From Archangium sp. (GTDB taxonomy: Bacteria > Myxococcota > Myxococcia > Myxococcales > Myxococcaceae): DNA of 64,000 bases. A program made the position numbers and the translations under genes. Below, piece by piece: positions 5,839 to 45,887 of the stretch; position 1 is the stretch's first letter; each line of letters begins with the position of its first letter. The DNA lies in contig JAUYRZ010000056.1 in the NCBI GenBank assembly GCA_030695565.1, forward strand, positions 1-64,000, given 5' to 3'. The notes below the pieces were generated by a model, which made no database searches, was not told the origin of the DNA, and saw nothing but the letters and a program-made list of their open reading frames with translations.

Positions 5839-7344
5839 ATGGCGCAGCTGCTCACTTTCGACGGTCACCCGCTCCACATCGAAGACGTCACGGCGATCTC
5901 CCGAAGGGAGCTCAACGCCCGGTTGTCAGGCGACTCGACCTTTCTGGCCCGCATCGAAGCGGGCGCCGCCCACGTGGCGCGCACCCTGGCTGAGCAGGGC
6001 GTCATCTACGGCGTGACCACCGGCTACGGCGACTCGGTCACCACCCCGGTGCCGCCAGAGCTGGTCCCCGAGCTCGGTCACCGCCTGTTCACCTACCACG
6101 GCGTGGGCCTCGGCCCCCCGTTCGGCATCGAAGAGACCCGCGCCATTCTCGCGGCGCGATTGCAGTCGCTCTCGCAGGGCCTCTCGGGTGTGAGCGTGGT
6201 GATGCTGCGCCAGCTCGAGCGGTTGTTGGTCGACGACCTTCTGCCCGTCATCCCCCAGGAAGGTTCGGTCGGGGCGAGCGGCGATCTCACCCCGCTCTCC
6301 TACGTGGCGGCCGTCTTGTGCGGCGAGCGCGACGTGTTCGTCGATGGCGTGCGCACGCCCACCGCCGAGGTGTTCAAGGCCCGGGGCATCGCGCCGATTC
6401 AGCTCAAGCCCAAAGAGGGCCTGGCGATCATGAACGGCACCGCCGTGATGACCGGGCTGGCGTGCCTCGCTTTCGAACGCGCCGAGGGGCTCTCGCGGTT
6501 GAGCGCGCACCTGACCGCGATGGCCTCGGCGGCGATGGGCGGCAACCCGCACCACTTCGATGAACGTCTGTTCCAGGCCAAGCCGCACGTGGGCCAGCAG
6601 CGCGTCGCCGGGTGGATCCGCGCGGATCTCGCGGGCTCGGAGCGCAGTGAGTCGCGCCTGCAGGATCGGTATTCGATTCGGTGCGCACCGCACGTGATCG
6701 GGGTGCTCGAAGACACGCTGCCGTTCCTGCGATCGTTGATCGAGAACGAGCTCAACAGCGCGAACGACAACCCGTTGATCGATCCCGAAGATGGCCGGGT
6801 GATGCACGGCGGGCACTTCTACGGCGGGCACATCGCGCTCGCGATGGACACGCTCAAGAACGTGGTGGCGAACCTGGCTGACCTGATGGATCGGCAGATC
6901 GCGCTGCTGGTGGATACCCGGTTCAATCACGGGCTCCCGGCGAACCTGAGCGGTGCGACCGGGCAGCGGGCGTCGGTCAGCCACGGGCTCAAGGCGCTGC
7001 AGATCGGCGCGTCGGCCTGGGCGGCTGAAGCGCTCAAGCTCACCATGCCGGCGTCGGTGTTCTCGCGTTCGACCGAGTGTCACAACCAGGACAAGGTCAG
7101 CATGGGCACCATCGCGGCTCGTGATGCGCTGCGCGTGCTCACGCTGACGGAGCAGGTCGCGGCGGCGCACGTGGTGACCGCGCGGCAGGCGGTGTTCTTG
7201 AAGGCCCGCTCGGGCGCGAAGGTGCCGGCGGGGGTTTTGAAACTTGCCGAGCAGATGGGGGTCGAGCCGTTGATTGAAGATCGGGTGCTCGAGCCGGAGC
7301 TGCGGGGGTTGATTGCTCGCATGCCGGCGCTCGGGAAGATCTGA
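5839..7344 (+). CDS. MIO-dependent aromatic amino acid ammonia-lyase (HAL/PAL family)
   Basis: A 501-residue member of the histidine/phenylalanine/tyrosine ammonia-lyase family. The A146-S147-G148 triad in VGASGDLTPL forms the MIO electrophile; the Tyr loop (YGVTTGYGDS) and the QDKVSMGTIAARDA motif are intact. The ATG at 5839 gives the family-typical N-terminus; the frame extends upstream antisense to other genes. The substrate-selectivity position reads Tyr86-His87, unlike Ser-His in canonical HutH, His-Leu in the Rhodobacter tyrosine lyase or Phe-Leu in phenylalanine lyases. No hutU, hutI or hutG lies nearby. Lying between two APE-like blocks, it most plausibly makes an aryl-acrylate starter, but histidine remains possible. 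It is divergent from the lipoprotein gene across 93 bases. Confidence 0.92.
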   Translation: MAQLLTFDGHPLHIEDVTAISRRELNARLSGDSTFLARIEAGAAHVARTLAEQGVIYGVTTGYGDSVTTPVPPELVPELGHRLFTYHGVGLGPPFGIEETRAILAARLQSLSQGLSGVSVVMLRQLERLLVDDLLPVIPQEGSVGASGDLTPLSYVAAVLCGERDVFVDGVRTPTAEVFKARGIAPIQLKPKEGLAIMNGTAVMTGLACLAFERAEGLSRLSAHLTAMASAAMGGNPHHFDERLFQAKPHVGQQRVAGWIRADLAGSERSESRLQDRYSIRCAPHVIGVLEDTLPFLRSLIENELNSANDNPLIDPEDGRVMHGGHFYGGHIALAMDTLKNVVANLADLMDRQIALLVDTRFNHGLPANLSGATGQRASVSHGLKALQIGASAWAAEALKLTMPASVFSRSTECHNQDKVSMGTIAARDALRVLTLTEQVAAAHVVTARQAVFLKARSGAKVPAGVLKLAEQMGVEPLIEDRVLEPELRGLIARMPALGKI

Positions 7345-16457: not shown

Positions 16458-17687
16458 TCAGGGCCACCTTCGGAAGATGAGCGAAGTGTTGATGCCCCCG
16501 AAGGCGAAGTTGTTGGTCATCACGAACTCGGTGTCGATCACCCGGTGATCCCCGCGGATGTAGTCGAGCACGCCGCACTTCGGGTCGATGGTCTCGAGGT
16601 TCAAGGTGGGCGCCATCCACTTCTCGCGCTGCATCTCGATGGTCATCCACGCCTCGAGCGCACCGCACGCGCCCAGGGTGTGGCCCATGTAGCTCTTCAA
16701 GCTGCTGATGGGCATGCGCTCGCCGAACACCGACTGCGTGGCGTGCGATTCGGCCACGTCGCCCTGGGCGGTGGCCGTGCCGTGGGCGTTCACGTAGCCG
16801 ATCGCCTCGGGCGGCAGCTTCGCGTCGGCAAGCGCGAGCCTCATGGCGTTGGCCATGGTGGAGCTGTTGGGGTTGGTGACGTGGGTGCCGTCGCTGTTGG
16901 TGCCGAAGCCCACCAGCTCCGCGAGGATCTTCGCGCCGCGCGCCTTCGCGTGTTCGAGCTCCTCCAGCACCAGCGTGCCGGCGCCTTCACCGAGCACCAG
17001 GCCGTCGCGGTTGGCGTCGAACGGCCGCGGCGTCTTGCGGGGCGCGTCATTGGTGGTGCTGGTGGCGAACAGCGTGTCGAAGACGGCCACCTGGGTGGCG
17101 TCGAACTCTTCCGCGCCGCCGGCCAGCATGGCGGTCTGCGCCCCGTGGCGGATCGCCTCGTAGCCGTAGCCGATGCCCTGGCTGCCCGAGGTGCACGCGC
17201 TGCTGGTGGTGATGATGCGGCCGGTCAGCCCGAAGAACACGCCCACGTTCACCGGCGCCGTGTGCGACATCATCTTGATGTACGTGGTGGCGGTGATGCC
17301 GTCGGTGGTCTTGTTGAGCAGCATGCGCCCGAAGTCGGCGATGAACTCAGGCGAACCCGATGAGCTGCCGTAGCTGACGCCCATCTGACCGGTCTTGATC
17401 CACGGATCACCGAAGAGCCCGGCGTCGCGCAGGGCGATCTCCGAGGCGCGCGTGGCCATCATCGCCACCCGGCCCATGCCGCGCATGGTCTTCCGGTTGT
17501 AGACCTTCTCGTCGAGCGTGAACGGCGCCGCCAGCGCGGCCAGCCGGGTGCCCATGCCTTCGTACTGCTGGAGCACCTCGGCCACCTGGATGGCGTTCTG
17601 CTTCGCCTTGAGGCGCGCGAAGACGGTCGGCCAGTCGTTTCCCAGTGGGCTCAAGGCCCCGACTCCTGTCACCACCACGCGTCTCAT
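16458..17687 (-). CDS. Beta-ketoacyl-ACP synthase (FabF-like; ApeR-like position)
   Basis: A 409-residue condensing enzyme. The active site is complete: Cys165 in TTSSACTSG, His302 in VNAHGTAT, Lys331 and His336 in KSYMGHTLGA. The C-terminus NNFAFGGINTSLI is canonical. It catalyses decarboxylative Claisen condensation of malonyl-ACP with an acyl-ACP. It follows the ketoreductase with a 1-base TGATG overlap, in the order ketosynthase-dehydratase-ketoreductase-ketosynthase that is conserved in aryl-polyene clusters, where the last ketosynthase is thought to act early or in supporting elongation. A housekeeping FabF role is less likely given that no fabD, fabH or acpP lies beside it, but it cannot be excluded. 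Confidence 0.9.
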   Translation of the reverse strand: MRRVVVTGVGALSPLGNDWPTVFARLKAKQNAIQVAEVLQQYEGMGTRLAALAAPFTLDEKVYNRKTMRGMGRVAMMATRASEIALRDAGLFGDPWIKTGQMGVSYGSSSGSPEFIADFGRMLLNKTTDGITATTYIKMMSHTAPVNVGVFFGLTGRIITTSSACTSGSQGIGYGYEAIRHGAQTAMLAGGAEEFDATQVAVFDTLFATSTTNDAPRKTPRPFDANRDGLVLGEGAGTLVLEELEHAKARGAKILAELVGFGTNSDGTHVTNPNSSTMANAMRLALADAKLPPEAIGYVNAHGTATAQGDVAESHATQSVFGERMPISSLKSYMGHTLGACGALEAWMTIEMQREKWMAPTLNLETIDPKCGVLDYIRGDHRVIDTEFVMTNNFAFGGINTSLIFRRWP

Positions 17688-18418
17688 CAGCCCAGGCCTC
17701 CGTTCACCGAGATCACCTGCCGCGTCACATACGACGCTTCGGGTGAGAGGAGAAAGGCTACCGCGGCCGCGACCTCTTCGGGCTTCCCCAGACGACGGGC
17801 AGGGATGAGCTCGAGCGCGTGTTTGATCACCTCTTCAGACACCATCTCGGTCTCGATGAGCCCGGGCGCCACGCAGTTCACGGTGATCTCACGTTTGGCC
17901 AGCTCGAGCGCGAGCGCCTTGGTGGCCCCGATGATGCCGGCCTTGGCCGCGCTGTAGTTGACCTGCCCGCGGTTGCCGAGCACCCCCGACACCGACGAGA
18001 TGGTCACGATGCGGCCCGGCTTGCGGCGCTGCACCAGCGGCATCACCAGCGGGCGGAGCACGTTGTAGAAGGCGTCGAGGTTGGTGTGGATGACGCTGTC
18101 CCACTCCTCGCCGGTCATCGCGGGGAAGGCCGTGTCGCGGGCGATGCCGGCGTTGCACACCACCCCGTAGTAGGCGCCGTGCGCTTCCACGTCGGCTTCC
18201 AGCGCCGCGGCGGTGGCCGCCCGATCGCTCACGTCGAAGGTGAGCAGGCGGGTCTTCGCCCCCAGCGCGGTGAGCTGCTCCATCACGGCCTTCGCTTCGT
18301 CGACCCGCGAGCGGCAGTGCACCACCACGTCGAACCCGTCTTTTCCCGCGCGCAGGGCGATGGCGCGGCCGATGCCTCGCGATGAGCCGGTGACGAGAAC
18401 CGTCTGCCTTTCAGCCAT
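17687..18418 (-). CDS. 3-oxoacyl-ACP reductase (FabG-like; APE-like locus)
   Basis: A 243-residue short-chain dehydrogenase. The NADPH loop is TGSSRGIG (residues 10-17), the CNAG motif is at 88-91 and the catalytic residues are Ser142, Tyr155 and Lys159 (NYSAAKAG). It reduces the beta-keto group on ACP-bound chains. The start overlaps the dehydratase's 3' end by 8 bases and its stop overlaps the next ketosynthase by 1 base, so the block is translationally coupled. Context identifies it as the ketoreductase of an aryl-polyene-type iterative synthase. The sequence alone fits any FabG. Confidence 0.92.
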   Translation of the reverse strand: MAERQTVLVTGSSRGIGRAIALRAGKDGFDVVVHCRSRVDEAKAVMEQLTALGAKTRLLTFDVSDRAATAAALEADVEAHGAYYGVVCNAGIARDTAFPAMTGEEWDSVIHTNLDAFYNVLRPLVMPLVQRRKPGRIVTISSVSGVLGNRGQVNYSAAKAGIIGATKALALELAKREITVNCVAPGLIETEMVSEEVIKHALELIPARRLGKPEEVAAAVAFLLSPEASYVTRQVISVNGGLG

Positions 18419-18875
18419 GGGTGTTGCCTCGCAGGTATTCTTCGACGTTGGGGGGTTGAAAGGCGTTGAGCTGGGCCGTGGCGATGAGCTCGTGCTTCAG
18501 CGTCAGGCGGCAGGCGAAGACGGCCAGCCCGTTTTCACCCACCATCTCTTCGCGGGCTTCGATCTCCAGCCGCGAACCGACGGGGAAGAAGGGCCGGGCA
18601 CACTCGTAGCGGCGGGTGCCCAGCAGGAACCCCAGCTTCACCGGTTCGTGCTTCGCCAGCGCGCGCAAGCCCGCCCAGGACGCCACGGTCTGCGCCATCA
18701 GCTCGATGCCCACCCAGGCCGGGAGGCCTTCGGGGGTGAGGAAGAGCTGGTCAGGCTTGACGATCGACTCCACCCGCACCAACTCGGGGGTGTCTTCCAG
18801 CAGTCGATCGATGAGCAGCATCGGCCCGCGGTGAGGCACCAGGTTCGAGATGTGACCTTCGTACGAACGGGCCAT
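18411..18875 (-). CDS. 3-hydroxyacyl-ACP dehydratase, hotdog fold (ApeP-like)
   Basis: A 154-residue hotdog-fold protein of the FabZ/FabA-like type found in aryl-polyene clusters. The catalytic His is His15 in LVPHRGPMLLID and the acidic partner is Glu58 in WVGIELMAQTVA. It would dehydrate 3-hydroxyacyl-ACP to give trans double bonds in the polyene. It starts 1 base after the upstream ketosynthase stop and overlaps the reductase start. Compared with FabZ (about 145 residues) the length is normal. The ATG at 18875 gives MARSYEGHIS, as in relatives. Confidence 0.88.
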   Translation of the reverse strand: MARSYEGHISNLVPHRGPMLLIDRLLEDTPELVRVESIVKPDQLFLTPEGLPAWVGIELMAQTVASWAGLRALAKHEPVKLGFLLGTRRYECARPFFPVGSRLEIEAREEMVGENGLAVFACRLTLKHELIATAQLNAFQPPNVEEYLRGNTHG

Positions 18876-18876
18876 G

Positions 18877-20046
18877 TCAGCTCCGCACCAGCGCGAGGGA
18901 GGCGTTGCTGCCCCCGAACGCGAACGAGTTGCTCAGCGCAGCGCGCACCGGCGCGCGTTCACCCGGCGTCACCAACCGCAGTCGAGGCAGCTCGACCTCG
19001 CGTTCGCCGTCGAACCAGTGGGGCGGCAGGCGGTGGGCGGGGTCGGTCAGGGTCAACCAGCAGATCGCGGCTTCGAGCGCACCGGCAGCGCCCAGGGTGT
19101 GACCGGTGAGCGGCTTGGTCGAGCTCGAGGGCACCTGGAGACCGAGCACGGCGTCGACCGCGCGGGACTCCATGGCGTCGTTCTGCGGCGTCGCGGTGCC
19201 GTGCAGGTTGAGATAGCCGATGTCGCTGGCCTTCAGCTGCGCGCGGGCGAGGGCCTGGCGCATCGCCTCGGCGGCGCCTTTGCCAGTGGGTTCAGGGGCA
19301 GAGAGATGGTGCGCGTCTGAGGTCTCCCCCCACCCCGCCAGCCGCACCGGGCCCGCCTCGCGGGTGACCAGGAAGAGCGTGGCGGCCTCACCGATGTTGA
19401 TGCCGTTGCGGTTCTTGCTCATCGGGTTGCAACGTTCGGCGCTGACCGACTCCAGCGCGCTGAAGCCGGCGATGGTGAAGCGGCACAGTGAATCGGCACC
19501 GCCGGCGATCACCGCGTCGACGAAACCCGCTTCGAGCCAGCGGGCGGCCGAAGCCAGCGCCTTCGCGCTCGAGCTGCAGGCGGTGGAGATGACGCAGGTC
19601 GGGCCGCGCGTGCCCAGCGTGGCGGCGAGGAAGCGCGCCGGAGAGCCGAGCTCCTGCATGGTGTAGTGGTAGCCCGGAGTCAGCGCGCCGGCCTTCACCA
19701 ACGCGTCGATGGCCAGCTCGGCTTCACCGATGCCCGAGGTGCTGGTGCCCATCACCACGCCGATGCGCGCGGGGCCGAAGCGGGCGATCGCCGCGTCGAC
19801 CGCGGGGCGGATCTGGGCGAGCGCGAGGCGCACCAACGCGTTGTTGCGGCTGCGAAACTCGACCGCGGCGTCTTCGAGTGAGGGCATCACCGCGTCGATG
19901 CGGCCGAGCGCGAGGGGGCGATCGGGGGCGTAGAAATCGGTCGTCTTCACGCCGGAAGGTGCGGGGCCGAAGAGCGCTTCACGCACGGCGTGTTGGCCTT
20001 CGCCCAGTGCGCAGACGAGGCCGAGCTCTGAGAGGTAAGCGCTCAT
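18877..20046 (-). CDS. Beta-ketoacyl-ACP synthase (ApeO-like)
   Basis: A 389-residue condensing enzyme with a full catalytic set: Cys157 in STACSSS, His282 in LNLHGTAT, Lys311 and His316 in KPLTGHTLGA, ending in NSFAFGGSNASLAL. In aryl-polyene systems the ketosynthase in this position works as a heterodimer with a chain-length factor; here the candidate factor is the protein at 880-1599, some 17 kb away. It begins a tightly coupled ketosynthase-dehydratase-ketoreductase-ketosynthase run. The gap of 73 bases to the lipoprotein upstream has no obvious promoter, so it is probably co-transcribed. Confidence 0.9.
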   Translation of the reverse strand: MSAYLSELGLVCALGEGQHAVREALFGPAPSGVKTTDFYAPDRPLALGRIDAVMPSLEDAAVEFRSRNNALVRLALAQIRPAVDAAIARFGPARIGVVMGTSTSGIGEAELAIDALVKAGALTPGYHYTMQELGSPARFLAATLGTRGPTCVISTACSSSAKALASAARWLEAGFVDAVIAGGADSLCRFTIAGFSALESVSAERCNPMSKNRNGINIGEAATLFLVTREAGPVRLAGWGETSDAHHLSAPEPTGKGAAEAMRQALARAQLKASDIGYLNLHGTATPQNDAMESRAVDAVLGLQVPSSSTKPLTGHTLGAAGALEAAICWLTLTDPAHRLPPHWFDGEREVELPRLRLVTPGERAPVRAALSNSFAFGGSNASLALVRS

Positions 20047-20119: not shown

Positions 20120-20656
20120 TCACGGCGCCACCGATTCGATCTCGAGCACGTACCCGAACCGCTGCTGCGTCAGCCGCACGAGCTTCCACGCCGGCGCCGC
20201 ACCTTCGTAAGCGACCGAAGCAAACGCCCGCCCGTCTTGCGTCAGCACCCGCGTGCCACTCGCCTCTTCCAGCGCGTAGCCGGCGGGCAGCCCGGCCCTG
20301 ACCGCTTCAGCCGGCCACCAGGCCAGCTGCACATCACTCAAGATCCGCGAAGCCGTGACCGAAGGCGGCACGTGCACCGAGACCTTGTGTTCCAGGGTCT
20401 TCCCATCCCAAAGCAGCGTCGCGATGGTCTGACCCATCGCCACCGCGGCGATGCGCACGGCGCTGGCATCGACCTCGAGCTGCGCGTCGAAGCTGCGCCG
20501 CTCTTCACCCCGCACCACGGTCACGCGCTGCGAGAGCTGCAGCTCGCGGCCCAATGACGCAGGCGAGAGGCGCAGCCCGAACTCCACCTCAGCCGGAGGT
20601 TTTGGAGTCGTGACGCACCCTGAAGCCAGCAAGAAGACGATCAGCCCTGCGCGCAC
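20120..20656 (-). CDS. DUF3261 lipoprotein of the APE-like locus
   Basis: A 178-residue lipoprotein. The signal ends in the lipobox LLASGC. The body carries the DUF3261 pattern familiar from aryl-polyene clusters: LSPASLGRELQLSQRVTV, then AVAMGQTIATLLWDGKTL, then LSDVQLAWWPAEAVRAGLP. This has a LolB-like look, so it may bind the hydrophobic product at the outer membrane. The GTG at 20656 overlaps the stop of the flavoenzyme gene by 16 bases. Earlier in-frame codons would run deep into that gene and lack a signal peptide. The role in polyene localisation is inferred from cluster conservation. Confidence 0.8.
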   Translation of the reverse strand: MRAGLIVFLLASGCVTTPKPPAEVEFGLRLSPASLGRELQLSQRVTVVRGEERRSFDAQLEVDASAVRIAAVAMGQTIATLLWDGKTLEHKVSVHVPPSVTASRILSDVQLAWWPAEAVRAGLPAGYALEEASGTRVLTQDGRAFASVAYEGAAPAWKLVRLTQQRFGYVLEIESVAP

Positions 20657-21873
20657 ACCTGCTCCAGCACCGTGAGGCGGCGCTTGGGCTCGGCCACGTA
20701 CGGATTGGTGGTGTCCCACGCGTAGCCCGCGAGGATCGAGCAGATCATCCGGCGGATGTCGGCCTGGGGCGCGGGGTGGAAGATGATCTTTTGAAAGCCG
20801 CCCGCGTACCAGGCCTCGACGAAGGTGCGGAACGCGTCGACGCCCTTCCGCAGCGGCACGGCAAAATCGGCCTGCCAATCGACCGTCTCGCCGCCGAGCT
20901 CGCGGTGCGCGCACTTCGCGGCGAGGCTGGCCGAGGTCATGGCGATGGTGACGCCCGACGAGAAGACCGGATCGAGGAACTCGCCTGCGTTACCCAGCAG
21001 CGCATAGCCCTTGCCGCACAGCTGCTTCACGTTCGACGCGTAGCCGCGCAGGGTGCGAGCCGGCGTGTCCCAGACCGCGTTCTTCAAGAGCTCCTTGAGC
21101 GACGGATCTTCGTTCACCAGCGTGCGCAGCTTGGTCATCTCGTCGCCCTGGTAGGTGTCGAGGAACTCCGCCGAGGCGACCACGCCCAACGAGCAGCGCC
21201 CCCCGGAGAACGGAATGACCCAGTACCAGACGTCAGGACGCTCGGGGTGCACGGCCACGCGGATCTTGTTGCGATCGAAGCCGTTGCCCATGGCCATGCG
21301 ATCTTCCACGTGCGTGAAGAACGCCTGGCGCACCGGGAAGGCCGAGGGCTGCTCGAGCTCGAGCAACCGCGGGAGCAAGCGGGCAAAGCCGCTGGCGTCG
21401 AGAATCAGCTTCGTCTCCACCTGGTACGACTCGCCGGTGTCTGACTTGACGGTGATCGTCGGAGTGCCGGTGACGTCGACCGCGGTCACGGTGTGGCGGT
21501 AGCGAACGTCAGCGCCCATGCGGGCGGCGGCATCGGCGAGCACCTTGTCGAACTTGCCGCGCTCCACCTGGTAGGTGGTGCCCCAGCCCTGGCTGAACTT
21601 GTCGCGAAAATCGAACTCGGTGGTGCGGCCCTGCCACGAGAACGACGCGCCGTTCTTGTGCTGAAAGCCGGCTTCGACCACGTCCTTCAACATGCCGGCC
21701 TCTTCGATGTACGTCATCGTCTGGGGCAGCAGGCTCTCGCCGATGGAGAAGCGCGGAAAGGTCTCCTTCTCGAGCACGAGCACCTGGTGACCCTGCTTGC
21801 GAAGCAGACCTGCAGCCACCGCGCCCGACGGACCTGCCCCCGTGATGACGACTTCAAACTTCTCGACGCGCAT
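20641..21873 (-). CDS. FAD-dependent halogenase-like oxidoreductase of the APE-like locus
   Basis: A 410-residue flavoprotein. The FAD-binding GAGPSG motif is at 12-17, FPRFSIGESLLP at 39-50, a lysine in FQHKNGASFSW at residue 73, and WYWVIP at 216-221. The latter matches the WxWxIP signature of flavin-dependent halogenases, and Lys73 falls where the catalytic lysine of phenolic halogenases lies. Related proteins in xanthomonadin and flexirubin loci are annotated as halogenases, but others in the superfamily are not halogenases. A GGAGG site 8 bases before the ATG at 21873 supports the start. It is the first gene of the right-hand APE-like block. Confidence 0.85.
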   Translation of the reverse strand: MRVEKFEVVITGAGPSGAVAAGLLRKQGHQVLVLEKETFPRFSIGESLLPQTMTYIEEAGMLKDVVEAGFQHKNGASFSWQGRTTEFDFRDKFSQGWGTTYQVERGKFDKVLADAAARMGADVRYRHTVTAVDVTGTPTITVKSDTGESYQVETKLILDASGFARLLPRLLELEQPSAFPVRQAFFTHVEDRMAMGNGFDRNKIRVAVHPERPDVWYWVIPFSGGRCSLGVVASAEFLDTYQGDEMTKLRTLVNEDPSLKELLKNAVWDTPARTLRGYASNVKQLCGKGYALLGNAGEFLDPVFSSGVTIAMTSASLAAKCAHRELGGETVDWQADFAVPLRKGVDAFRTFVEAWYAGGFQKIIFHPAPQADIRRMICSILAGYAWDTTNPYVAEPKRRLTVLEQVCAQG

Positions 21874-27034: not shown

Positions 27035-29446
27035 TCAGCGGCGAACGACGAACTTCACGGTGTCGAGCAGCACGCCCGAACGATCGCGCACCTCCATCAC
27101 GTGCGCGCCCTGGGTCGCGGGCAGGTGGCCGGTGAAGGGCGGCGCCAGCTCGAGCGCCCTTTCACCATCGACCCAGATCGCGAGTGGGCCCGAAGACGAC
27201 GCGGCCCTGACGCGCACGGGGATGGCTTGATCAGCGAGCGGAAGATCAGCCAACAAGAGGAACTCGCCGCCGTTCACCGGGTGGAGCACGCGCGCGCTGC
27301 CGTCACGCTCCGCGCTGCCCATGCACGCGGCCGCCAGCCAGGGCTCGCGCGCGAGGCCTTCGTTCTTCGCCCAGTCGTAGAAGTCGAGCCCGAGATCGAC
27401 CAGCCGCCCCTGCGAGGCCGCGAGCTGCAGGCATTGCTGGCGCAGCTCGGGCGACAAGGTGGCCGAGAGCTCGCCGTGCATCTCGCACGAGCTGGTGGGG
27501 CCGGTGCCGGGCACGAAGAGCTCCTCCATCGCGGCCGGGCAGCTGGCCCCTGCGAGGTGACCGGAGAGCGGGCAGATCGCGAAGGCGTCGAGCCCGCGGC
27601 GATCCACGAGTGACTGCGGCACCACGTCTTTCATCGCCTTGGTCATCACCCGCTTGAAGATGGGGCCTGCGCCGGTGATGCCCGAAACCTGAATCATCGG
27701 GGTGCCGTCGAAGTTGCCGGCCCAGACCGCGACCGTTCGCTCCCGGGTGAACCCCACCGTCCAGTTGTCGGAGTAGCCCTTCGAGGTGCCCGTCTTCGCC
27801 GCCGCGGGGAAGGGCAGCCGCAACGCGTTGTCGATGCCGAAGGCGCGCGCACGGGCGGCGTTGTCGCTGAGGATGTGCGTCACCAACGCGACGGCGCGCG
27901 ATTCAGCAAAGCGGCGTGGCTTGAGCTCGCGGCGAACGGGCAGCGGGTTGCCTTCCGCGTCCCACGCACGAAGCACGGGCACCAACGGGTGCACCACGCC
28001 GCCCCGAGAGAGACCGGAGTACGCGCGCGCGGCTTCCCACAAGGAGACCTCTCCGTTGCCGAGCGCAAGGCCGAGGCCGTAGTGCTCTGCGCCTGACTTG
28101 AGCGAGTCGAACCCTGCGCGGCGCAACACGGCCAGCGCGTTGCCCAGGCCCACGTCGTCGGCCACCCGCACCGCGGGCACGTTGTAGGAGTTCGCCAGTG
28201 CTTCTCGTGCACGCACCGGTCCGTGCAGGCGGCGGTCGTAGTTCTTCGGCGAGTAACTGCCCTTGGGTGCGTTGAAGGCCGTGTCGAGATCGGGAATGAC
28301 CGTGGCCGGCGTGTAGCCATGCGCAAAGGCCTCGGCGTAGATGAACGGCTTGAGCGCCGAGCCGGGCTGGCGGTGCATCTGGATGCCGTCGTTCTGGCCG
28401 AAGATCGCGTCGTTGAAGAAGTCGGCAGAGCCGGCGTACGCGAGGATTTCTCCGGTGGCGTTGTCGACCACGAGGCTGGCCGCCGAGGAGACGCGCCGCT
28501 CGGTGAGGCGTCCGACTTCCTGAGCAATCTGCTCTTCGACTTCGGGTTGCAGCCGCGGATCGAGGGAGGTCTCCACCACGGCGGCCTTCGCGAGCCCCCA
28601 GTCGGAGAGGTGCGCGGCGATGTATTCCACGAAGTGTGGCGCGCGGAAGGCGGCCGTGAAGGCGGTGAGATCGAGCGGCTCTGCTTTCGCCGAAGCGACC
28701 AGGTCAGGGGTGGCGAGGCCGGTGACCTCGAGGCGTTGGAGCACCCAGGCGCGGCGGGCTTCGAGCTGACGGGGGCGGCGGTAGGGATCGTAGGCGGTCG
28801 GCCCGCGTGGGATCGAGGCCAGCATCGCGGCCTGCCCGAGGGAAAGGTGGCGGGCGCGCTTTCCGAAGTAGAGCTGCGCGGCGGCTTCGAGGCCGAAGGT
28901 GTTGTTCCCGAAGGGGATGCGGTTCAGGTACTGCGTGAGGATCTCGTCTTTCGACAGGTGCGCTTCGAGGCGCAGAGCCCAGAGCGCTTCCTGCGCTTTG
29001 CCGAAGAAGGTGCGCGGGCGCGGGACCAGGGTGCGGGCGAGCTGCTGCGTGATGGTGGAGCCGCCGGCGACGAGGTGACCTGCTTTGAGGTTCTGCTTTG
29101 CGGCTCGGAGGATCGCGGTGGGCGAGATGCCGACGTGACCGTGGAAGCGGTGATCTTCGGCGGCGAGGAACGCGGCCTGGACTTGTGGGGTGAGGTCTTC
29201 TGATTTGAGCGGCGTCGATCGGCCATCGGTGGTGCTTCGCAGCTCACGCAGGAGCTGACCGTCTCGGTCGAGGAGTTTGACCGAGGAGATCGCGCGGTAG
29301 TCGAGCAGGCCTGCTGGCAGCGGCGCTGCGATGAAGGCCAGCAGCGGCATCAGGGGGATTGCCAACAGGAGATACCTCTCCCTGCGACCGCGGGGAGAGG
29401 TCGGTCCTGAGCCTTGCGAAGGACCGGGTGAGGGGCGCTTTTTCAA
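27035..29446 (-). CDS. pbpC: Penicillin-binding protein 1C (bifunctional transglycosylase/transpeptidase)
   Basis: Up to 803 residues. After an N-terminal membrane anchor come the glycosyltransferase-51 domain (AAEDHRFHGHVGISP, GGSTITQQLAR), the transpeptidase domain with PGSALKPF (SxxK), SYN-type NSYNVP and KTGTSKG, and a C-terminal PBP1C-specific domain of about 90 residues (LHPVNGGEFLL ... KFVV). It polymerises and crosslinks peptidoglycan. It lies directly downstream of the alpha-2-macroglobulin gene, the conserved pairing in Gram-negatives. The start is unsure: TTG 29446 (used here) places part of the N-terminus within a repeat; TTG 29365 and ATG 29350 are alternatives. TTG 29446 gives a basic stretch before the membrane helix. 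Confidence 0.95.
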   Translation of the reverse strand: MKKRPSPGPSQGSGPTSPRGRRERYLLLAIPLMPLLAFIAAPLPAGLLDYRAISSVKLLDRDGQLLRELRSTTDGRSTPLKSEDLTPQVQAAFLAAEDHRFHGHVGISPTAILRAAKQNLKAGHLVAGGSTITQQLARTLVPRPRTFFGKAQEALWALRLEAHLSKDEILTQYLNRIPFGNNTFGLEAAAQLYFGKRARHLSLGQAAMLASIPRGPTAYDPYRRPRQLEARRAWVLQRLEVTGLATPDLVASAKAEPLDLTAFTAAFRAPHFVEYIAAHLSDWGLAKAAVVETSLDPRLQPEVEEQIAQEVGRLTERRVSSAASLVVDNATGEILAYAGSADFFNDAIFGQNDGIQMHRQPGSALKPFIYAEAFAHGYTPATVIPDLDTAFNAPKGSYSPKNYDRRLHGPVRAREALANSYNVPAVRVADDVGLGNALAVLRRAGFDSLKSGAEHYGLGLALGNGEVSLWEAARAYSGLSRGGVVHPLVPVLRAWDAEGNPLPVRRELKPRRFAESRAVALVTHILSDNAARARAFGIDNALRLPFPAAAKTGTSKGYSDNWTVGFTRERTVAVWAGNFDGTPMIQVSGITGAGPIFKRVMTKAMKDVVPQSLVDRRGLDAFAICPLSGHLAGASCPAAMEELFVPGTGPTSSCEMHGELSATLSPELRQQCLQLAASQGRLVDLGLDFYDWAKNEGLAREPWLAAACMGSAERDGSARVLHPVNGGEFLLLADLPLADQAIPVRVRAASSSGPLAIWVDGERALELAPPFTGHLPATQGAHVMEVRDRSGVLLDTVKFVVRR

Positions 29447-29504: not shown

Positions 29505-32500
29505 TCACTTCTGGGTCACCGGCGTGGGCAGCTCGACGGTGAACGTGCCGCCTTCACTGCGACCCCAGACCTCGGGCTCGTACATGAGCTCACCGCGTGC
29601 AGGCTTGAGCACGAACACACCCGGCGTGGTCGCGCGCGCCACGAAGCTGGTCACGTGCACACCCGGCGGCAAATGATCCGCGAAGATCACCACCCGGCTG
29701 TCGCGCATCTCCACGTGGTTGAAGGGGCTCCAGAACCGGTACGCCCACGGGTTGTATTCCTCTTCTTCCGCGTCGCCTTCGGCCCCGTCTTCCCCGCCCT
29801 CGTTCTCGTACCCGACGTCGTTCTGCTCCTCACCAGGTGAACGCCCGAGCTTCGCGGTGGTGGAAAGCGAGGTGTCGACCGGCTCGAGGCCCGCAGGCAG
29901 CGGTACTTCGAAGGCCGCCCAGTGACGTTCCTGGTTCGACGCGATGCGCACCCGAATTCGCACCAGATCGCCCGCGAAGAACTTGGTCGACTGCCCACCA
30001 CCCGCGTACGGCTCGAACCACCGCTGCACGAACAGCCCGCTGTCGAGCGGCTTGGTGGGCATCTCCTTCGGCGCGTACTTGAGCAGCGCCGAGTAATAGA
30101 GCACGCCCGCGCCCTCCTTCTTGAAGGTGAGCTTCTGCTCTGCCCCGCCCGACTTCGCGAGCAGCTCCTTCATGGGAATGGCCTTCACCTCGGTCTTCAT
30201 CGAGCGGCCCTTGAAGGCGATGCCCATCAGCTCGGCGGTGCCCATGGTGAGCGAGGCCTTGAAGTCCGGGGTGTCCTTCTCCTTGGTGCGCAGCACCTGG
30301 GTCAGCCCGATGAGCGACCAGGCGGCCTCCTGGGTGGTGCGCCACTGGCCGTCACCCTGCCGAACACCCGTGAGGTACTTCGCCATCTTCCCCACGAACG
30401 GATGCTCGGGGGTGATGTCGGTGAGCGCCTGCAGCACCACGCCGGTGGTGCGCGTGTCGGAGTTGAACAGCGTCGCGTAGGTCTCGTTCTGCACCTCGGC
30501 GATCGACAGGCCCTTGGGCGACTCCTTCGCGTTGTTGAGGATCTCCTGCATCAGCGCGTTGGCCTGCTTGCGATCACCCCCGCCGACGAACATCGCGTTG
30601 GCCAGCAGCGCGCGGGAGAAGATCGAGAGCTTGTCGCGCCGCGCGTAGAACTCGGCGTAGCTCGAGGGCTTGGGCTTCTTCATGCGCGCCAGCACGTAGC
30701 TGGCGAACACCCGCGTCTCGTCACCGCAGTAGATCGAGTTCCAGCAACCGCCGCAGTTACCGCCGACGACGTTGCCGAGGTACTTCTCGGCGCGCGCGAG
30801 GCGATCGGCCGGCACCGTGAAGCCGACTTCCCTGGCCCGGTAGAGCGCCATCGTCGCGTACGTGCTCGACCACGGGTCGGAGCACATCGACGAAGGCCAG
30901 TACCGGAAGCTGCCGTCACCATCCTGCAGCGAGAGAATGCTCTTCACCGTCGCGTTGATGACCTCGTCGGGATCCTTCTTGTCGGAGACGTCGAGGGTGC
31001 TGAAGAGATACGTGTTGATGAGCGCGTTCATCTCATCGTTGGCCGCTGCCTTCTTCTTGTCCGGCCCGGGCCACGGCACGCCGAACTGACCGGCGATTTC
31101 ACGCAGCGCGATGAAGGGCACCAGCCGCGACGACTGCTGCTCGAGGCAACCGTACGGGTACTCGATCAACTGCTGGAAGCCGCGATCGAAGCCACCCAGT
31201 GAGGTCGACGACATCGACACCGTCAGGCCGCCGAGATCTTCGTACACGTCCTTCGGAGGCGTGATGCCTTCGACCCGCTGATCGGTGGTGTCGCCGTAGG
31301 TCGCCACCGCGTCGGTCTCCACCGGCAGCTCGATGGGCAACTTCTCCTCGACGCCATCCGTCGCACCGCCGCCCACCACCTTGAAGCGGAACGCAGTCAC
31401 GCCCGGCTTCATGGCCTTGAAGGAGAAGCGCACCTCGCGCGGGCTGCCTTCTTTGAGCGACACCTTCTGCTCGGCCGCGCCGGTGAGCTGGGCGCCCGCG
31501 CCTTCGATGGTCGCGGTGACCGTCACTTCACTCTCCGGAATACCGTGCGCGTGCACCACCACGCCGGCCTCGAACGCATCACCCACGCGCGCGAACCGGG
31601 GCATCGCGGGCAACGCCATCACCGGCTTGTTCACCTGCACGCTGGTCTCACCGCTGCCGAAACGATCGGTCTGGGTGATCACCACCGCCATGATGCGGAA
31701 GGCGGTCAGGTTGTCGGGCAGCGAGAACGAAGTCGTCGCCGAGCCGTTGTTCACCTCGAGCGTCGGGTTGAAGAGCACCGTGGTCTTGAACTGGTTGCGG
31801 AACCCGCCCCCCGAACCATCACCACCACCACCGCCCGCCTCTTCACCCTTCTCTCCGTACGAACGCTTGCGCACCAGGTGCAGCAGCGGCTCGCCCAGGC
31901 GCATCGACAGCGGGCGCTCCGGGTAGATCGACGCGATCGGATCGGGCACTTCGTAGCTGGTGAGCCGCAGCACGGCCTCATCGACCACGTAGAGCGTCAC
32001 CTCACCCGAAGCCGGCTTGCCCGCCGAGTCCTTCACGTCGAGCGTCACGTTGACCGTCTCGCGCGGCTGGTAGTCCTTCTTGTCGGTCTTCACGGAGACC
32101 GCGAGGCGCTTGGTCTTCTTCTCCACGTTCAACTTCACCAGGCCGATGCGCGCATTGGGCCGGCCGGGATCGTCGCCGGTCTCGATGCCGCCCTCCTTCA
32201 CGCGCGAGCGCATGATCAACACGCCGGCGAACACGTTGGGCACCATCTCTTCGGTGATCGGCACGTCGATGGTGACCACCGAACCCTTGAGGTCGACCAG
32301 CTTGCGCGACAACACGCCTTCGCGCTCGACGGTGAACATCGCCTTCGCTTCGGGGTACGGCGACTTGATGAGCACCTTCGCGACGTCGCCCACGTCGTAG
32401 GTCGGCTTGTCGGTGATCAACTCCACCCGGTCGGTGTCGTTGCGCTGCCAGGCCACCCATTCGTTGCCCGTCGCGTACACACCCATCGACGACGAGTGCT

Positions 32501-35474
32501 GGCGGCCCTGCTCGTCTTTCACCACGCCGCGCACGATGAAGAAGCCCGCGTTGGCCGGCTTGAAGGCGCAGGGCACCACGCCTTCGGCGCTCTCCAGCTC
32601 GCACTTCTTCACCTCGGTCTCCACCGGCTCGGAGATGGTGGTGAAGCCGCCCGAAGCGTCTTTCTGCTTCACGGACTTCCAGGTGCGGCTGGTGATGGTG
32701 ACGGTGACCTTCTTGCCCCTGGTGCGCTTGCCTTCGGTGTCGAGCACCAGCGCCTCCATGCCGTACTCGGTGCCCACCTGGAGGAAGTACGCGGGCGAAC
32801 GCAGGCCGACGTAATAGTTCGCCGGGTGCACCATCACTTCGGTGCGGCCCGCCACCGACTGCCGGTTCACGTCGGTGACCTCGGCCTCGAAGGTGTACGT
32901 GTACGGCTTCTCACCGGGCGCCTCCGTGTTGCCCGCCTTCACGGCCAGCGCGCCTTGCGTATCGGCCTTGCCCTCGCCTGAAGCGAAGAAGCCGCTCGCG
33001 TCGTGCGGCTGGTGGTCGTCCCACCACCAGGTCTCCTGCGCGAAGGTGAAGCCCACCCCCGACTCCGAAGAGAAGCTGGTGCTGGTGCGCTGCGAGCTCC
33101 ACTTCACCTGCACATCGTTCATCGCGCCGCCGAAGAGGTAGCGCGCGAAGACGGTGGCCTCGAGCGGGTCGCCCGCGATGAGTGACTTCTTCTTCGACTC
33201 CACGTCGACGCGGAACTGCGGCGCTCGGTACTCTTCGACGCGGAATTGGCTCGAGACGTTGAGGTCGCCGCCCGCGATCTTCCCGGCGGTCTGCACGGAG
33301 TAGTAGCCGGTGGGCGCTTCTTTCCCGATGGTCGCCTTGAGCGAGAAGGTGCCGTACTTCGTCACCTTCACCGTCTCGGTCTTCACCTTCTCGCCCTTCG
33401 AGTCGTTGATGGTCACGGTGAGCGAGCTGCCTTCTGAAGGCGCGCGCAGCTCACCCAGCACGCGGTAGCGCACCACGCCCTTCACGAACACCTCGTCACC
33501 CGGCTTGTAGATGCCGCGATCGGTGAAGGTGAAGCTGGCCGACTCCGGCCGCTCCCCCTCCCAGCCCTGGCTCAAGCTGAACTCGTAGGGCTCGACGCCG
33601 CTGTCCCAGGTGCTGGCCGTGGCGGAGACGTCGCCGTCTTTCTGAGCGACCACGAGGGAGAACGGCACCTCCCACTGGTAGCGCGGGTTCTTCAGCTTCA
33701 TGGCCACCGCACCGGGCGCGTCGGCGAACCCGTCGGCGTTTGACTTGCCGGCCCACACCTGCGTGCCCGCCGAGTCGAAGATGGTCACCTCGGCATCTGC
33801 CACCGGCTTGCCATCGGAGAGCCGGGTCACCCAGACCAGCGACGACTTGGGACCGATCTTGATGTGCGCGGCGAGGTCGGTGACCTGCACCACCTGCTGG
33901 TAGCCACGCGGCGGCTTGTATTCGAGATCGGGCGAGTTCACGTTGATGAGCGCGAGGCCCGTCTTCACGCCGGCGCCGAAGATCTTCTCGAGCTTGAGCG
34001 GGTGCACCCGCGCGAGGTTCTTGCCGTAGGTGAGCTTCTCGTCTTCGGAGAAGTCAGCGCTGCGGCCCAGGCCCTTCACGTCGTCTTCGTCGCTGCCCAG
34101 CACCTTGGCCAGCTCGGGGATGGTGAGCTTCCACATGCTCACGTTGAGCGTCTTGAGGTTGCTCACCTCGACGGGAACGATGGGGGCGTCGCTCTTCTCG
34201 ACCACGCCGAGCGAGCCGCCGGTGATGAGCGAGGCGGAGAGATCATTGGTCTGCAGCGTGGCGTTGAGGCCCTGGGCCGCCGCCTGCTTGAAGATGTCGG
34301 CGACGCCGCCGGCGATCTCGATCTTGTACTGCGTGCCCGCCTTGAATTTGCCCGGGATGGTGACGGTCGGGCGGCGGTTGCTGATCTCCCACTCGGAGTG
34401 CGGCGTGCTCGTCGACGCGGAGTCCCACAGCAGCTCGACGGCCGGGGTCACCTTGATGCGCGTCTTGAGCGTGTCGAGCTCGACTTCGTTGGTGGTGTTG
34501 ATCACCAGCGGGCCATACGGGCAGCGCCACTCGCCTTCGCAGAACCGCGCGCTCTCCAGCTTGAGCGGGCCGTAGGTGCGCCAGCTCACGTCGACCGGCA
34601 CGGTCATGGGCAGCGCGCCGTCTTTTCCGTGCAGCGACGGATCGAACTGCAGGGTGAGCGCCTGGTCGAGCGGCAACGCGGTCTGCGGCTTCAAGATGTA
34701 GCGGGTCTGCCGATTGCGGTAGCCGCGCTCTTGATCGTCCATCGCCTCGTAGCTGCGGCCGTTCTTCTTCGCTTCTTCGATCTGCGCGCGGCGTTCGTCC
34801 TGAATCGAGATCTCCTTCTCCACCTTGAGCGCGATCGCCGTCGAGCCGGCGGTGAACTTGAGCGCCTTCTCGAGGTCGGCGGCGAGCACCGGCTGGTTGA
34901 AGAGCAGCGTCACCGTGCTGTCGGGGCGCAGCCACCGATCGCCCCGCGCGGGCGAGACGTCCTGCAGCTCGAGCCGAGGCGTGGTGAAGGTGAAGGTGTA
35001 GTCCTCGGCGAGCTTGGCGCCGTCGAGCGCGGTGAGCCCCTTGAACACGGTCACCGTGAAGGTGCTGGAGAACGGCACCAGGCCTTTGGGCACGAACTCG
35101 GCAGACGCGCTGCCCAGCCAACGCCACTCGCCTTCGATCGCGGGGTCGATCTTCGCGAAGGGTTTGGCCGCGTCCTTCGCGCGGGTGTCTTCCACTTCCT
35201 GCAGGCCCTGCACGGGGCGCGAGAAGGTGACGGTGGGCCGTACTTCGCCCTGTTGTTCACCCTGGGGGCGCGCGGCGACGACCGACAGATCTTCACCCGC
35301 ACCGGGCATCGACTCGTGCGGCACGTCGAGCGTCGGCGCCTGCGGCAGCGGGTTGAGCTGGCGCGTTCCATCCTGCCCCTGAGGGTTCATGGGATCAGTG
35401 GGCGTCTTGCCCTTGTCGCAGGTACAGCCCACGGCAACGACGAGACAGAGCGGCAGCAGTTTTCGGAAGAACAC
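29505..35474 (-). CDS. Bacterial alpha-2-macroglobulin lipoprotein with thioester
   Basis: A 1989-residue periplasmic lipoprotein. The signal ends in the lipobox AVGC (Cys17), with Thr at +2, which favours outer-membrane sorting. Ig-like MG domains fill the first 1300 residues or so. The bait-and-thioester region holds YPYGCLEQQ with Cys1443 and Gln1446 forming the reactive thioester, followed by the alpha-helical TED domain and a receptor-binding-like end. Family members trap proteases and protect the periplasm when the outer membrane is breached, working with PBP1C, encoded next. The GTG at 35474 is chosen because it opens the signal peptide. Length is somewhat above the usual 1500-1900. 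Confidence 0.95.
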   Translation of the reverse strand: MFFRKLLPLCLVVAVGCTCDKGKTPTDPMNPQGQDGTRQLNPLPQAPTLDVPHESMPGAGEDLSVVAARPQGEQQGEVRPTVTFSRPVQGLQEVEDTRAKDAAKPFAKIDPAIEGEWRWLGSASAEFVPKGLVPFSSTFTVTVFKGLTALDGAKLAEDYTFTFTTPRLELQDVSPARGDRWLRPDSTVTLLFNQPVLAADLEKALKFTAGSTAIALKVEKEISIQDERRAQIEEAKKNGRSYEAMDDQERGYRNRQTRYILKPQTALPLDQALTLQFDPSLHGKDGALPMTVPVDVSWRTYGPLKLESARFCEGEWRCPYGPLVINTTNEVELDTLKTRIKVTPAVELLWDSASTSTPHSEWEISNRRPTVTIPGKFKAGTQYKIEIAGGVADIFKQAAAQGLNATLQTNDLSASLITGGSLGVVEKSDAPIVPVEVSNLKTLNVSMWKLTIPELAKVLGSDEDDVKGLGRSADFSEDEKLTYGKNLARVHPLKLEKIFGAGVKTGLALINVNSPDLEYKPPRGYQQVVQVTDLAAHIKIGPKSSLVWVTRLSDGKPVADAEVTIFDSAGTQVWAGKSNADGFADAPGAVAMKLKNPRYQWEVPFSLVVAQKDGDVSATASTWDSGVEPYEFSLSQGWEGERPESASFTFTDRGIYKPGDEVFVKGVVRYRVLGELRAPSEGSSLTVTINDSKGEKVKTETVKVTKYGTFSLKATIGKEAPTGYYSVQTAGKIAGGDLNVSSQFRVEEYRAPQFRVDVESKKKSLIAGDPLEATVFARYLFGGAMNDVQVKWSSQRTSTSFSSESGVGFTFAQETWWWDDHQPHDASGFFASGEGKADTQGALAVKAGNTEAPGEKPYTYTFEAEVTDVNRQSVAGRTEVMVHPANYYVGLRSPAYFLQVGTEYGMEALVLDTEGKRTRGKKVTVTITSRTWKSVKQKDASGGFTTISEPVETEVKKCELESAEGVVPCAFKPANAGFFIVRGVVKDEQGRQHSSSMGVYATGNEWVAWQRNDTDRVELITDKPTYDVGDVAKVLIKSPYPEAKAMFTVEREGVLSRKLVDLKGSVVTIDVPITEEMVPNVFAGVLIMRSRVKEGGIETGDDPGRPNARIGLVKLNVEKKTKRLAVSVKTDKKDYQPRETVNVTLDVKDSAGKPASGEVTLYVVDEAVLRLTSYEVPDPIASIYPERPLSMRLGEPLLHLVRKRSYGEKGEEAGGGGGDGSGGGFRNQFKTTVLFNPTLEVNNGSATTSFSLPDNLTAFRIMAVVITQTDRFGSGETSVQVNKPVMALPAMPRFARVGDAFEAGVVVHAHGIPESEVTVTATIEGAGAQLTGAAEQKVSLKEGSPREVRFSFKAMKPGVTAFRFKVVGGGATDGVEEKLPIELPVETDAVATYGDTTDQRVEGITPPKDVYEDLGGLTVSMSSTSLGGFDRGFQQLIEYPYGCLEQQSSRLVPFIALREIAGQFGVPWPGPDKKKAAANDEMNALINTYLFSTLDVSDKKDPDEVINATVKSILSLQDGDGSFRYWPSSMCSDPWSSTYATMALYRAREVGFTVPADRLARAEKYLGNVVGGNCGGCWNSIYCGDETRVFASYVLARMKKPKPSSYAEFYARRDKLSIFSRALLANAMFVGGGDRKQANALMQEILNNAKESPKGLSIAEVQNETYATLFNSDTRTTGVVLQALTDITPEHPFVGKMAKYLTGVRQGDGQWRTTQEAAWSLIGLTQVLRTKEKDTPDFKASLTMGTAELMGIAFKGRSMKTEVKAIPMKELLAKSGGAEQKLTFKKEGAGVLYYSALLKYAPKEMPTKPLDSGLFVQRWFEPYAGGGQSTKFFAGDLVRIRVRIASNQERHWAAFEVPLPAGLEPVDTSLSTTAKLGRSPGEEQNDVGYENEGGEDGAEGDAEEEEYNPWAYRFWSPFNHVEMRDSRVVIFADHLPPGVHVTSFVARATTPGVFVLKPARGELMYEPEVWGRSEGGTFTVELPTPVTQK

Positions 35475-35659
35475 GGCATCCCCCAGAGGGAAACGAGTTG
35501 TGTGCCTTGTAGCTGAAGTCGCTGGGCACCCCACCTCAATCTGGTCTGTTGCGAGGTCGCCTCACCACCAGCGTCACAACCCTGACCCACCAGCACGGCG
35601 GGAAACGCGTTGAAACTCGGCGAAGTCCGCCGGGCATGCGCGTTGCTCAGGGCAGCCGC

Positions 35660-39193: not shown

Positions 39194-39616
39194 CTACCGC
39201 TTCATCAAGTGCAGCTCTTCTTCCCTCACGATCCACCCGCGGCACTGCGCCGAGCCACAGGTGCAAGGCACGGCCAGCTCCGCGGGGAACTCGTAATCGA
39301 AGGTGACCTCCTCACCCGCCGCGATGTCCCGCCACGCGTAGAGCTTCGCCCACGGCTCGCCGTGCTCATCGAGCCCGAGATCGATCTCTGCGTTGGCGGT
39401 GCAGCTGTGATTCATCCACCGCGTCTGATCGACCATGTCGAACGACACCGCATCCGTGATGCGCAGCGTATAGGTGTCGTCCCACCACTCGCCCTCACGC
39501 CAGGTGACGCCTTCGATGTCGGCCATCATGTCGCCCTCTTTGAAGTCCTTGAGAGCGAGCAAGCCGTAACCATGCACTGAGCTGCGCACGACGCGCAGTC
39601 CGGGAATCTGAGCCAT
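39194..39616 (-). CDS. Small SET-domain lysine methyltransferase-like protein
   Basis: A 140-residue protein that is almost only a SET domain. The N-terminal strand SSVHGYGLLALKDFKEGDMM is followed by RWMNHSCTANAEI with the NHSC motif and GEEVTFDYEF with the catalytic tyrosine. It ends in a post-SET-like zinc site (CTCGSAQCRGW). SET enzymes transfer methyl groups from SAM to protein lysines. Free-standing bacterial SET proteins have unknown targets in most species. The ATG at 39616 is preferred over the longer frame, which runs antisense under the next gene. It diverges from the giant lipoprotein gene across 70 bases. Confidence 0.88.
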   Translation of the reverse strand: MAQIPGLRVVRSSVHGYGLLALKDFKEGDMMADIEGVTWREGEWWDDTYTLRITDAVSFDMVDQTRWMNHSCTANAEIDLGLDEHGEPWAKLYAWRDIAAGEEVTFDYEFPAELAVPCTCGSAQCRGWIVREEELHLMKR

Positions 39617-39686
39617 GAAGGGCCTATGCCAGAACTTGGGCCTCGGCTGGTCTAGGCTTTCTGATCTCCCCGGCGAGGCCTCCCCC

Positions 39687-45600: not shown

Positions 45601-45887
45601 CGACCAGCGATGGCCACGTGGTGGCGTACCAGACGACCAACCTGGTGGGCTCGGTCAACGAGATCTCACTCAAGGCCGCGCTCTGCACCACCGACTGTCA
45701 CCTGCTCAAGAACTGGTACCGGCGATCACTCGCCACCTGGCCGGGCAACTCCGCCACCCGGCTCTCTCCGGTGGTCACTCAGTCGACCACCAGCGGCGGC
45801 GCCATCGGGCCCCGGTGGTACGTCACCTTCCGCGAAGCCGGGCAGCTGCGCATCTTGCGCGGGGGCCTGGTGCGCCGGGTGCGCTGA
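39687..45887 (+). CDS. Giant multidomain surface lipoprotein (CarboxypepD_reg-like, Ig-like, FN3, BNR/Asp-box)
   Basis: A 2066-residue exported protein. The lipobox is VLASC (about residue 16). In order: three or four carboxypeptidase-regulatory-like domains (GGITVQLIDDDG, SLTRGTIEGTV-type starts, LTDADGGFAHV); Ig-like repeats with DNAGN / DRAGND and ITLDTTPPSP-type borders (about 420-1150); an FN3-like domain (about 1160-1250); then a beta-propeller-like region with Asp-boxes (SPDRGRTWQL, SVDQGRNWAAL, STDQGVTF). There is no sialidase catalytic set. It is probably an adhesin or surface scaffold. The ATG at 39687 opens the signal peptide. Long antisense frames below it are shadows. Confidence 0.88.
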   Translation: MVRRALCLCVIVLASCKADLEIPPAPVSASVVGAVDTDPAQTNVAPGGITVQLIDDDGLKRSTLTDADGGFAHVGVQPGLYALEVTAPTFATLIVPNVRVRSGVPTDVGVLSPTSTRNSPDEGRLTGLVSAPAGASVAGATVQFLLKPNDDLLGQVTVGFDGVFTERLPPGHYVLRASHPDFTSVDSMELELLRGQVQDLRMTPLLLGLNPATLTGTVMREVEGGPAVPADGALVTLGNGATTTTDAQGAFILTGLPAGSFTLRAALAAHFDPSPARMVTLRAGQTTAADPFTVSLVRGTIEGTVELSDRAPIDVVSVSAVSASTMRGYAAVVSPDPLLPYRGTFTINDVPSGSYEVQAAKARYSRATTTVSVTTGSTPAGNLLLALQQGDFLIDDADTTNVSGYTRTRDVTLRFTGFPATGVTSFRVAEDPGFPDAGFAPYTGVQQPYSLSSSGDGLKTVFAQYRDNTGATSPTFQNSIILDQVAPPAPGVTLQSTGTPNGAVRFARTNQVLPLSLVATDDRGLAAMKISGSNSLGTDGTLIGPRLSVQGTTTFARSTSADGAQTVYVQLVDNAGNLSPLGQDTIVVDATAPGVSVSTLAIPRGLRASVDGFTNSPFVDVTVAATPQANGEALYIKLANATGAELDAANFTPVRASFSWIVTPADGLKTVSAVLMDSAGNTSAIASSTITLDTTPPSPVSATLASGLVRGSPVRVNVASTAVDLSPTVGLATSDNPGFPGAAGPLPAGGFVDVPLTTVPSSPGVYPATVYARFRDRAGNDAVISLPLTVDSEPPAGFITLQGALADGTPDSSLTAGAAVSVLAGTVTGASGYVLGDASLTACPNPQTTTYAAMPTTGVLPHTLTGSGSPREVRACFRDAAGNVFGGLVSGAWVPSTTIGFDATPPTGCTLSVSGRKVDGTPAPAGRTASVDVITQLTGCSGALEAVISNGVVTCSNTVTGWAALTGLASPQLPPVDGTKTVSACVRDAARNVASVASVNIVLDTAPPSAASVEIEFLEGVVNRTEASGRSPDGGLFVSAAVRATWADATELVLETSDGRGPLDAGAVFTPLSPGLRSVTSDQGGGSALVQLLDLSSLGASPDAFRLGIGARFRDDVGNATERVDTQVLLDVTRPLPPTLTGLSTGNRSGTLFWLASPSFDVTNYELGTGTSMFVVGGQAPAGARTGTAIGLRNRREYQFAVRAVDGAGNRSLLSNALTGTSGWRAATVPLNSVYPVRPLDVAVKGEDIYLTFSERDVEGSVETGNLRMAHSPDRGRTWQLSTIDASFAWNRKVGRINVQDTQIAVTTIGSDQDPSTTNYPTLGEAKIYSSIDGVSWTKWTDSNLPMQANWGEVGGPGLVVSGTFGRMYYVQNPGAANLIRTYGTTLVSGFNFPLLSTFYDAPDTVQMNDLAVCDGNYLKVMVWKEAGQLNSLTHRFVYDTDYVGTEGNGALVQSGANDSFDLACSSLPGRANAYVVYKQGATIGFRGRQASGTWLGNGGFSVVNDADVRFPPRIHAAGTIAAMVYRPQSGGVRLGVVTDEGSGFSPTDWDRVEANPLQGYWPVVGGEAIDDLAIAYTDSDAATLTVLVPELRGVTGRGLPGINTASLSWSSGGLSDFIVGTDDNASFVTPQQSFYMSQPTFDVAVPADEPLYHRIGARDSFGQGSEEGEIWQMAPFEQTTLFTANFSVGTGATSTAGVVAHDNTVVVLPPYGLKMTTDSDLTLYRSVDQGRNWAALQPPAAVVTSAARSMDGALGRAVLAYRLSASIGVRARLFSSLTGAYPAETMIDATMNADHIAVGTDRNNRFAIVSSSVATDQIGIAWSNDGVTFVNRARLTIPAAASYAITDVSVWRVDPFRLIISWRQSGAGSERIYFAESTDQGVTFGVPVLLVDGTTGGSGNQFVNSQTITRGSGNDAYSILGYVSQNAVTPPRSANLFLAITGTDHPPTTGNFTQFLLDQDPAVKDSFDLTSTSDGHVVAYQTTNLVGSVNEISLKAALCTTDCHLLKNWYRRSLATWPGNSATRLSPVVTQSTTSGGAIGPRWYVTFREAGQLRILRGGLVRRVR

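Follow-up and report, generated by a model that had tools for sequence, protein, structure and literature searches.

Few bacterial natural products are as widespread as the aryl polyenes (APEs), whose clusters differ in whether they carry a halogenase gene and in how the aromatic head is supplied. In xanthomonadin-type clusters, such as those with halogenase H of Xanthomonas or arcA of Azoarcus, a gene annotated 'halogenase' lies beside the aryl-polyene type II PKS genes (PMC3691225, PMC3949708, PMC3838355), and the chorismatase XanB2 leads to a hydroxybenzoate head. The Xanthomonas clusters carry a halogenase and their pigments are brominated (PMC3691225), xanthomonadin I being dibrominated (PMC3949708). 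Lysobacter enzymogenes lacks the halogenase gene, and its pigment lacks a bromine pattern (PMC3691225). X. (now Stenotrophomonas) maltophilia forms halogenated pigments, according to Jenkins and Starr (1985) as cited in PMC3949708. Flexirubins have a tyrosine-derived 4-hydroxyphenyl head and are ring-chlorinated in some forms (PMC3992019). The E. coli APE cluster (apeA-R) has the same N-O-P-Q-R gene order and enzyme types as the locus described below, and its gene table includes neither a halogenase nor a lyase; E. coli ApeN is a DUF3261 protein (PMC8253772). A further layout, which we call lyase-type, is found in Myxococcus dinghuensis (L041), Arenimonas (L036), Pseudoxanthomonas (L046), S. 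maltophilia (L087) and Acinetobacter (L147): lyase, thioesterase and exporter genes lie upstream of a gene whose product is 51-70% identical to the Archangium enzyme studied here, and N-O-P-Q-R follow, all in one block.

The Archangium pathway departs from the one-block clusters in its split layout, and from the XanB2 clusters in having an aromatic ammonia-lyase. Within the window (the whole 64,000-nucleotide stretch that was analysed), a minus-strand ORF runs from an ATG at 21873 to 20641 and encodes 410 amino acids plus a stop; a plus-strand reading of the same interval is interrupted by a stop codon. The enzyme belongs to a known group, the 'halogenase' of xanthomonadin-type clusters, to which it is likened by annotation. 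Its gene opens a six-gene, operon-like run on the minus strand (halogenase-N-O-P-Q-R) that ends at 16458 (Table 1), in agreement with the first-pass annotation, which had placed it at the head of a polyene block.

Table 1. Features assigned to the aryl-polyene pathway in the Archangium window.
Feature	Coordinates	Strand	Basis
Flavin-dependent halogenase-like enzyme	20641..21873	minus	Motifs, Pfam, phmmer, alignment, fold
DUF3261 LolB-like lipoprotein, ApeN position	20120..20656	minus	Pfam DUF3261, 112 bits
Beta-ketoacyl-ACP synthase, ApeO position	18877..20046	minus	NF006618, 504 bits; synteny
ApeP-like 3-hydroxyacyl-ACP dehydratase	18411..18875	minus	Pfam ApeP-like, 68.5 bits
FabG-type ketoreductase, ApeQ position	17687..18418	minus	NCBIfam FabG, 391 bits; FlxB, 271 bits
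Beta-ketoacyl-ACP synthase, ApeR position, last gene of the run	16458..17687	minus	NF006587, 682 bits; synteny
MIO-type aromatic ammonia-lyase	5839..7344	plus	Pfam Lyase_aromatic, 520 bits

The first-pass annotation had also read halogenase signatures from this protein, and its residue numbers proved exact on the minus-strand translation: the GxGxxG flavin-binding motif is GAGPSG at residues 12-17, with glycines invariant in an alignment of 30 orthologues; Lys73 lies within FQHKNGASF; and the WxWxIP motif, thought to stop monooxygenation (PMC8407142), is WYWVIP at residues 216-221. A third halogenase mark had been missed. The Fx.Px.Sx.G motif, which lines the tunnel from the flavin to the halogenation site (PMC8407142, PMC12871659), is present as FLDPVFSSG at residues 299-307. 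The resemblance is far beyond chance: the Pfam Trp_halogenase model, whose cut-off is 21 bits, scores 88 bits. A phmmer search with the 410-aa protein returned the structure 3nix (E 3e-112) and seven crystallised halogenases (E 4e-31 to 3e-42). The NCBIfam names for single enzymes (CmlS, QhpG and LodB) were rejected, with scores far below their cut-offs. A scan for a promoter or terminator 5' of the gene found none.

The run contains the APE core set, namely the ApeO and ApeR ketosynthases, the ApeP dehydratase, the ApeQ reductase and ApeN, and the lipoprotein gene likely begins at a GTG that overlaps the 3' end of the halogenase gene. Upstream lie divergent PAP2 and signal peptidase II (lspA) genes, and the halogenase half of the cluster has this pair upstream in two other Archangium genomes as well (L149 and L150); in L150 the lyase lies just past the last ketosynthase. 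Using Myxococcus dinghuensis cluster proteins as bait, we located most of the missing half of the pathway in the same genome on contig C38, with an exporter 45% identical (E 1e-171) and a ligase-dehydratase fusion 43% identical (E 3e-121). The end of that contig (37535-44946, L121) carries genes for an ACP, an ApeH-ApeI fusion, a glycosyltransferase, an acyltransferase, a thioesterase, a LolA-like protein and an MMPL exporter, together with a small membrane-type protein in the place of ApeG. As for the chain-length factor ApeC, the contig stops beside the ACP gene. Because the C38 genes directly precede the halogenase gene in other bacteria, where the exporter side runs straight into it, the Archangium cluster is split between the exporter (M) and the halogenase. 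An assembly break is an unlikely cause, as the halogenase gene sits well inside an 87.7-kb contig and has the same neighbours in the two same-genus genomes.

The aromatic ammonia-lyase also stands apart, 13 kb from the halogenase gene within the window. It is 60-67% identical to the lyases inside orthologous clusters, where the gene lies between those for the acyltransferase and the thioesterase. Its highest NCBIfam scores were to the BagA/FevW tyrosine lyase (388 bits) and hutH (379 bits), none above its cut-off, and these scores lie too near each other to separate tyrosine, phenylalanine and histidine as substrate. Among solved structures, the protein matches a tyrosine aminomutase best. By eye, it has Tyr-His at the usual selectivity position, where histidine lyases have Ser-His. 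The gene is probably a relocated part of this pathway that supplies its tyrosine ammonia-lyase.

A scan of genome contigs identified at least 80 related loci, at 59-86% identity, in Beta- and Gammaproteobacteria, Myxococcota and Elusimicrobiota. The same ketosynthase gene followed 3' on the same strand within 2 kb in 75 of the 80 listed loci, and among the 71 listed loci with at least 9 kb of upstream sequence, the lyase was present upstream in 66 and the exporter in 69. Across the alignment of 30 orthologues, which share 60-86% identity with its first sequence, Lys73, W216, W218, I220 and P221 were invariant, as was the Fx.Px.Sx.G motif. Lys73 was aligned in all 39 rows of the clade and in all seven PDB rows, matching the lysine of PltA, Mpy16, ChlB4, CndH, CmlS and FasV. 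Full-length homologues retained WxWxIP and Fx.Px.Sx.G at identities as low as about 27%, and the two motifs were missing only from four distant reductase-like proteins (24-26%). One feature marks the clade off: its signature GNAxEFLDP (residues 294-302), in which Asn295 replaces the usual Asp, occurs throughout the aryl-polyene clade and in 3nix, whereas all other halogenases compared have GD or GDA in place of GN at 294-295. Clusters of Acinetobacter and Pseudoalteromonas also contain the gene, under the label 'NAD(P)/FAD-dependent oxidoreductase' or under 'tryptophan 7-halogenase'.

Some matches lay further afield. Two Neisseria gonorrhoeae records (NZ_CP119140.1, 158252-159466; NZ_CP119142.1, 157380-158594) contain a match of 54% identity that is broken into three pieces and may be what is left of this gene. 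Among relatives, halogenase-like homologues 54-57% identical were seen on contig C5 of genome G003 (L031), where it is a second copy, and on contig C80 of G026 (L013), where it adjoins ketosynthase-like genes.

An AlphaFold model of the 410-aa protein, built from 30 sequences (pLDDT 91, pTM 0.90), was closest to 3nix (Z 55.8), a Cytophaga hutchinsonii flavoprotein/dehydrogenase that is 44% identical over its full length, shares the same motifs and GNAxEFLDP, and comes from a flexirubin-type (Bacteroidota) organism. The halogenases ChlB4, PltA, Mpy16, FasV, Bmp2, RadH and CndH came next (Z 45-39), and p-hydroxybenzoate hydroxylases scored 35.8 or lower, the best of them 9 Z units under the best proven halogenase. 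The ranking is not clean, as CmlS, a longer true halogenase, scored 35.2, no higher than the hydroxylases; the predicted fold nevertheless mostly resembles halogenases more closely than it does hydroxylases or reductases. PltA, Mpy16, ChlB4, CndH, CmlS and Bmp2 share this fold and, in those aligned, the lysine, WxWxIP and Fx.Px.Sx.G, but they are only about 25-30% identical, have GD and not GN at 294-295, and serve other pathways.

In a maximum-likelihood tree the Archangium protein, 3nix and their relatives formed a clade with support of 100/100, with 3nix in a separate sub-clade (99/90), set off from other halogenases by a long stem. The first-pass annotation had named placement with reductases or hydroxylases lacking halogenase activity as one outcome that would overturn its reading. 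The best tree joins the clade to the halogenases (87/50), as that reading predicts, but an alternative that groups it with the reductase-like rows was not rejected (p-AU 0.31). Because this deep split is weakly supported, we dropped the tree as proof of halogenase kinship, and the halogenase assignment rests on the conserved lysine, the motifs and the fold.

We consider the gene to encode a two-component flavin-dependent halogenase of the APE pathway, at a probability of roughly 0.7. From the gene, its motifs and fold, the operon, its conserved synteny and most of the remaining pathway genes, we infer activity, halide, substrate, timing and position as follows. FADH2 from a separate reductase would bind the GxGxxG fold; no separate flavin reductase gene was found within the six-gene operon, and any cellular reductase could serve. 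With O2, the reduced flavin would form a C4a-peroxide, and attack on it by halide would give HOX, which would travel along the tunnel lined by FLDPVFSSG to be held by Lys73, while WYWVIP would keep the substrate off the flavin. Most likely, the electron-rich ring of the aryl head would be halogenated regioselectively, at a position ortho to its phenolic hydroxyl. The substrates of PltA, Mpy16, Bmp2, ChlB4 and CndH are carrier-bound and, since this is true of most of the closest solved halogenases, the substrate would most likely be an aryl or aryl-polyenoyl chain bound as a thioester to the acyl carrier protein of the cluster. The head, a 4-hydroxyphenyl group, would probably derive from tyrosine through the lyase, as suggested by the putative specificity of that enzyme and by flexirubin biosynthesis (PMC3992019).

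The enzyme probably chlorinates or brominates the pigment, and a halogenated polyene, as first proposed from the sequence, is a plausible product of this Archangium. The evidence on pigments consists of correlations at the level of species, drawn partly from titles and annotations. When the S. maltophilia genome was searched, the homologous gene was its only Trp_halogenase-family locus. We found no demonstrated reaction or assay in the literature for any member of the halogenase-like clade. The Azoarcus BH72 cluster contains arcA, annotated as a halogenase, and its pigment arcuflavin (C41H52O4) is halogen-free (PMC3949708). This last case raises a reading that we regard as rather unlikely, in which a halogenase-fold enzyme does another job, oxidizing or hydroxylating the aryl polyene or carrying out a cryptic halogenation that is later lost, and the mature pigment is free of halogen. 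The clade-specific GNAxE signature would be consistent with this, as would the deposition of 3nix as a dehydrogenase. So would the strength of conservation, which resembles that of the core enzymes: median identity across the listed loci is 65% for the halogenase-like gene against 61% and 69% for the core ketosynthases, which may exceed what a dispensable tailoring step requires. Full-length members nevertheless keep Lys73, WxWxIP and Fx.Px.Sx.G intact, one of these motifs being the one thought to stop monooxygenation, and the fold is closer to most halogenases than to hydroxylases. A single halogen-free pigment, moreover, may reflect the halide supply in the medium.

If the enzyme is an active halogenase, it might instead act chiefly on the polyene chain or on some other acyl group bound to a carrier. 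One bromine of xanthomonadin I sits on the polyene chain, and the enzyme's gene adjoins those for chain elongation; yet the closest solved halogenases of known substrate mostly act on aromatic rings, and the lyase suggests a ring that is phenolic and activated, so that we think a chain target improbable. We give very little credence to an ordinary flavin hydroxylase, or an enzyme of the geranylgeranyl-reductase type, whose halogenase marks are superficial. The weak deep split in the tree would allow it, and the geranylgeranyl reductase model TIGR02032 does score 118 bits, but this is below its curated cut-off of 158.8; the gap in Z score between the hydroxylases and the best proven halogenase also argues against it, and Lys73 is absent from the same four motif-less reductase/monooxygenase-like relatives that lack WxWxIP.

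The clade is near-constant in lyase-type APE clusters from Myxococcota to Acinetobacter, often under the annotation 'NAD(P)/FAD-dependent oxidoreductase', and the enzyme is a regular part, of putative function, of one large cluster branch. We advance only tentatively the broader proposal that the clade represents one of two things: a source of halogenated outer-membrane lipids that is very common but has gone unrecognised, or an enzyme of halogenase fold, marked by GNAxEFLDP, whose essential step involves no halogenation or a cryptic one. If its members halogenate, membrane pigments carrying halogen would occur far more often than the few records, from Xanthomonas, Stenotrophomonas and flexirubin producers, suggest. 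If they do not, a family that has every motif by which halogenases are recognised would stand as a caution against annotating from motifs.

Other large genes share the window. A bacterial alpha-2-macroglobulin of 2009 aa is encoded on the minus strand at 29505-35534, adjoined by a penicillin-binding-protein-like gene at 27035-29446, and a 2090-aa protein with repeated carboxypeptidase-regulatory-like domains is encoded on the plus strand at 39615-45887.
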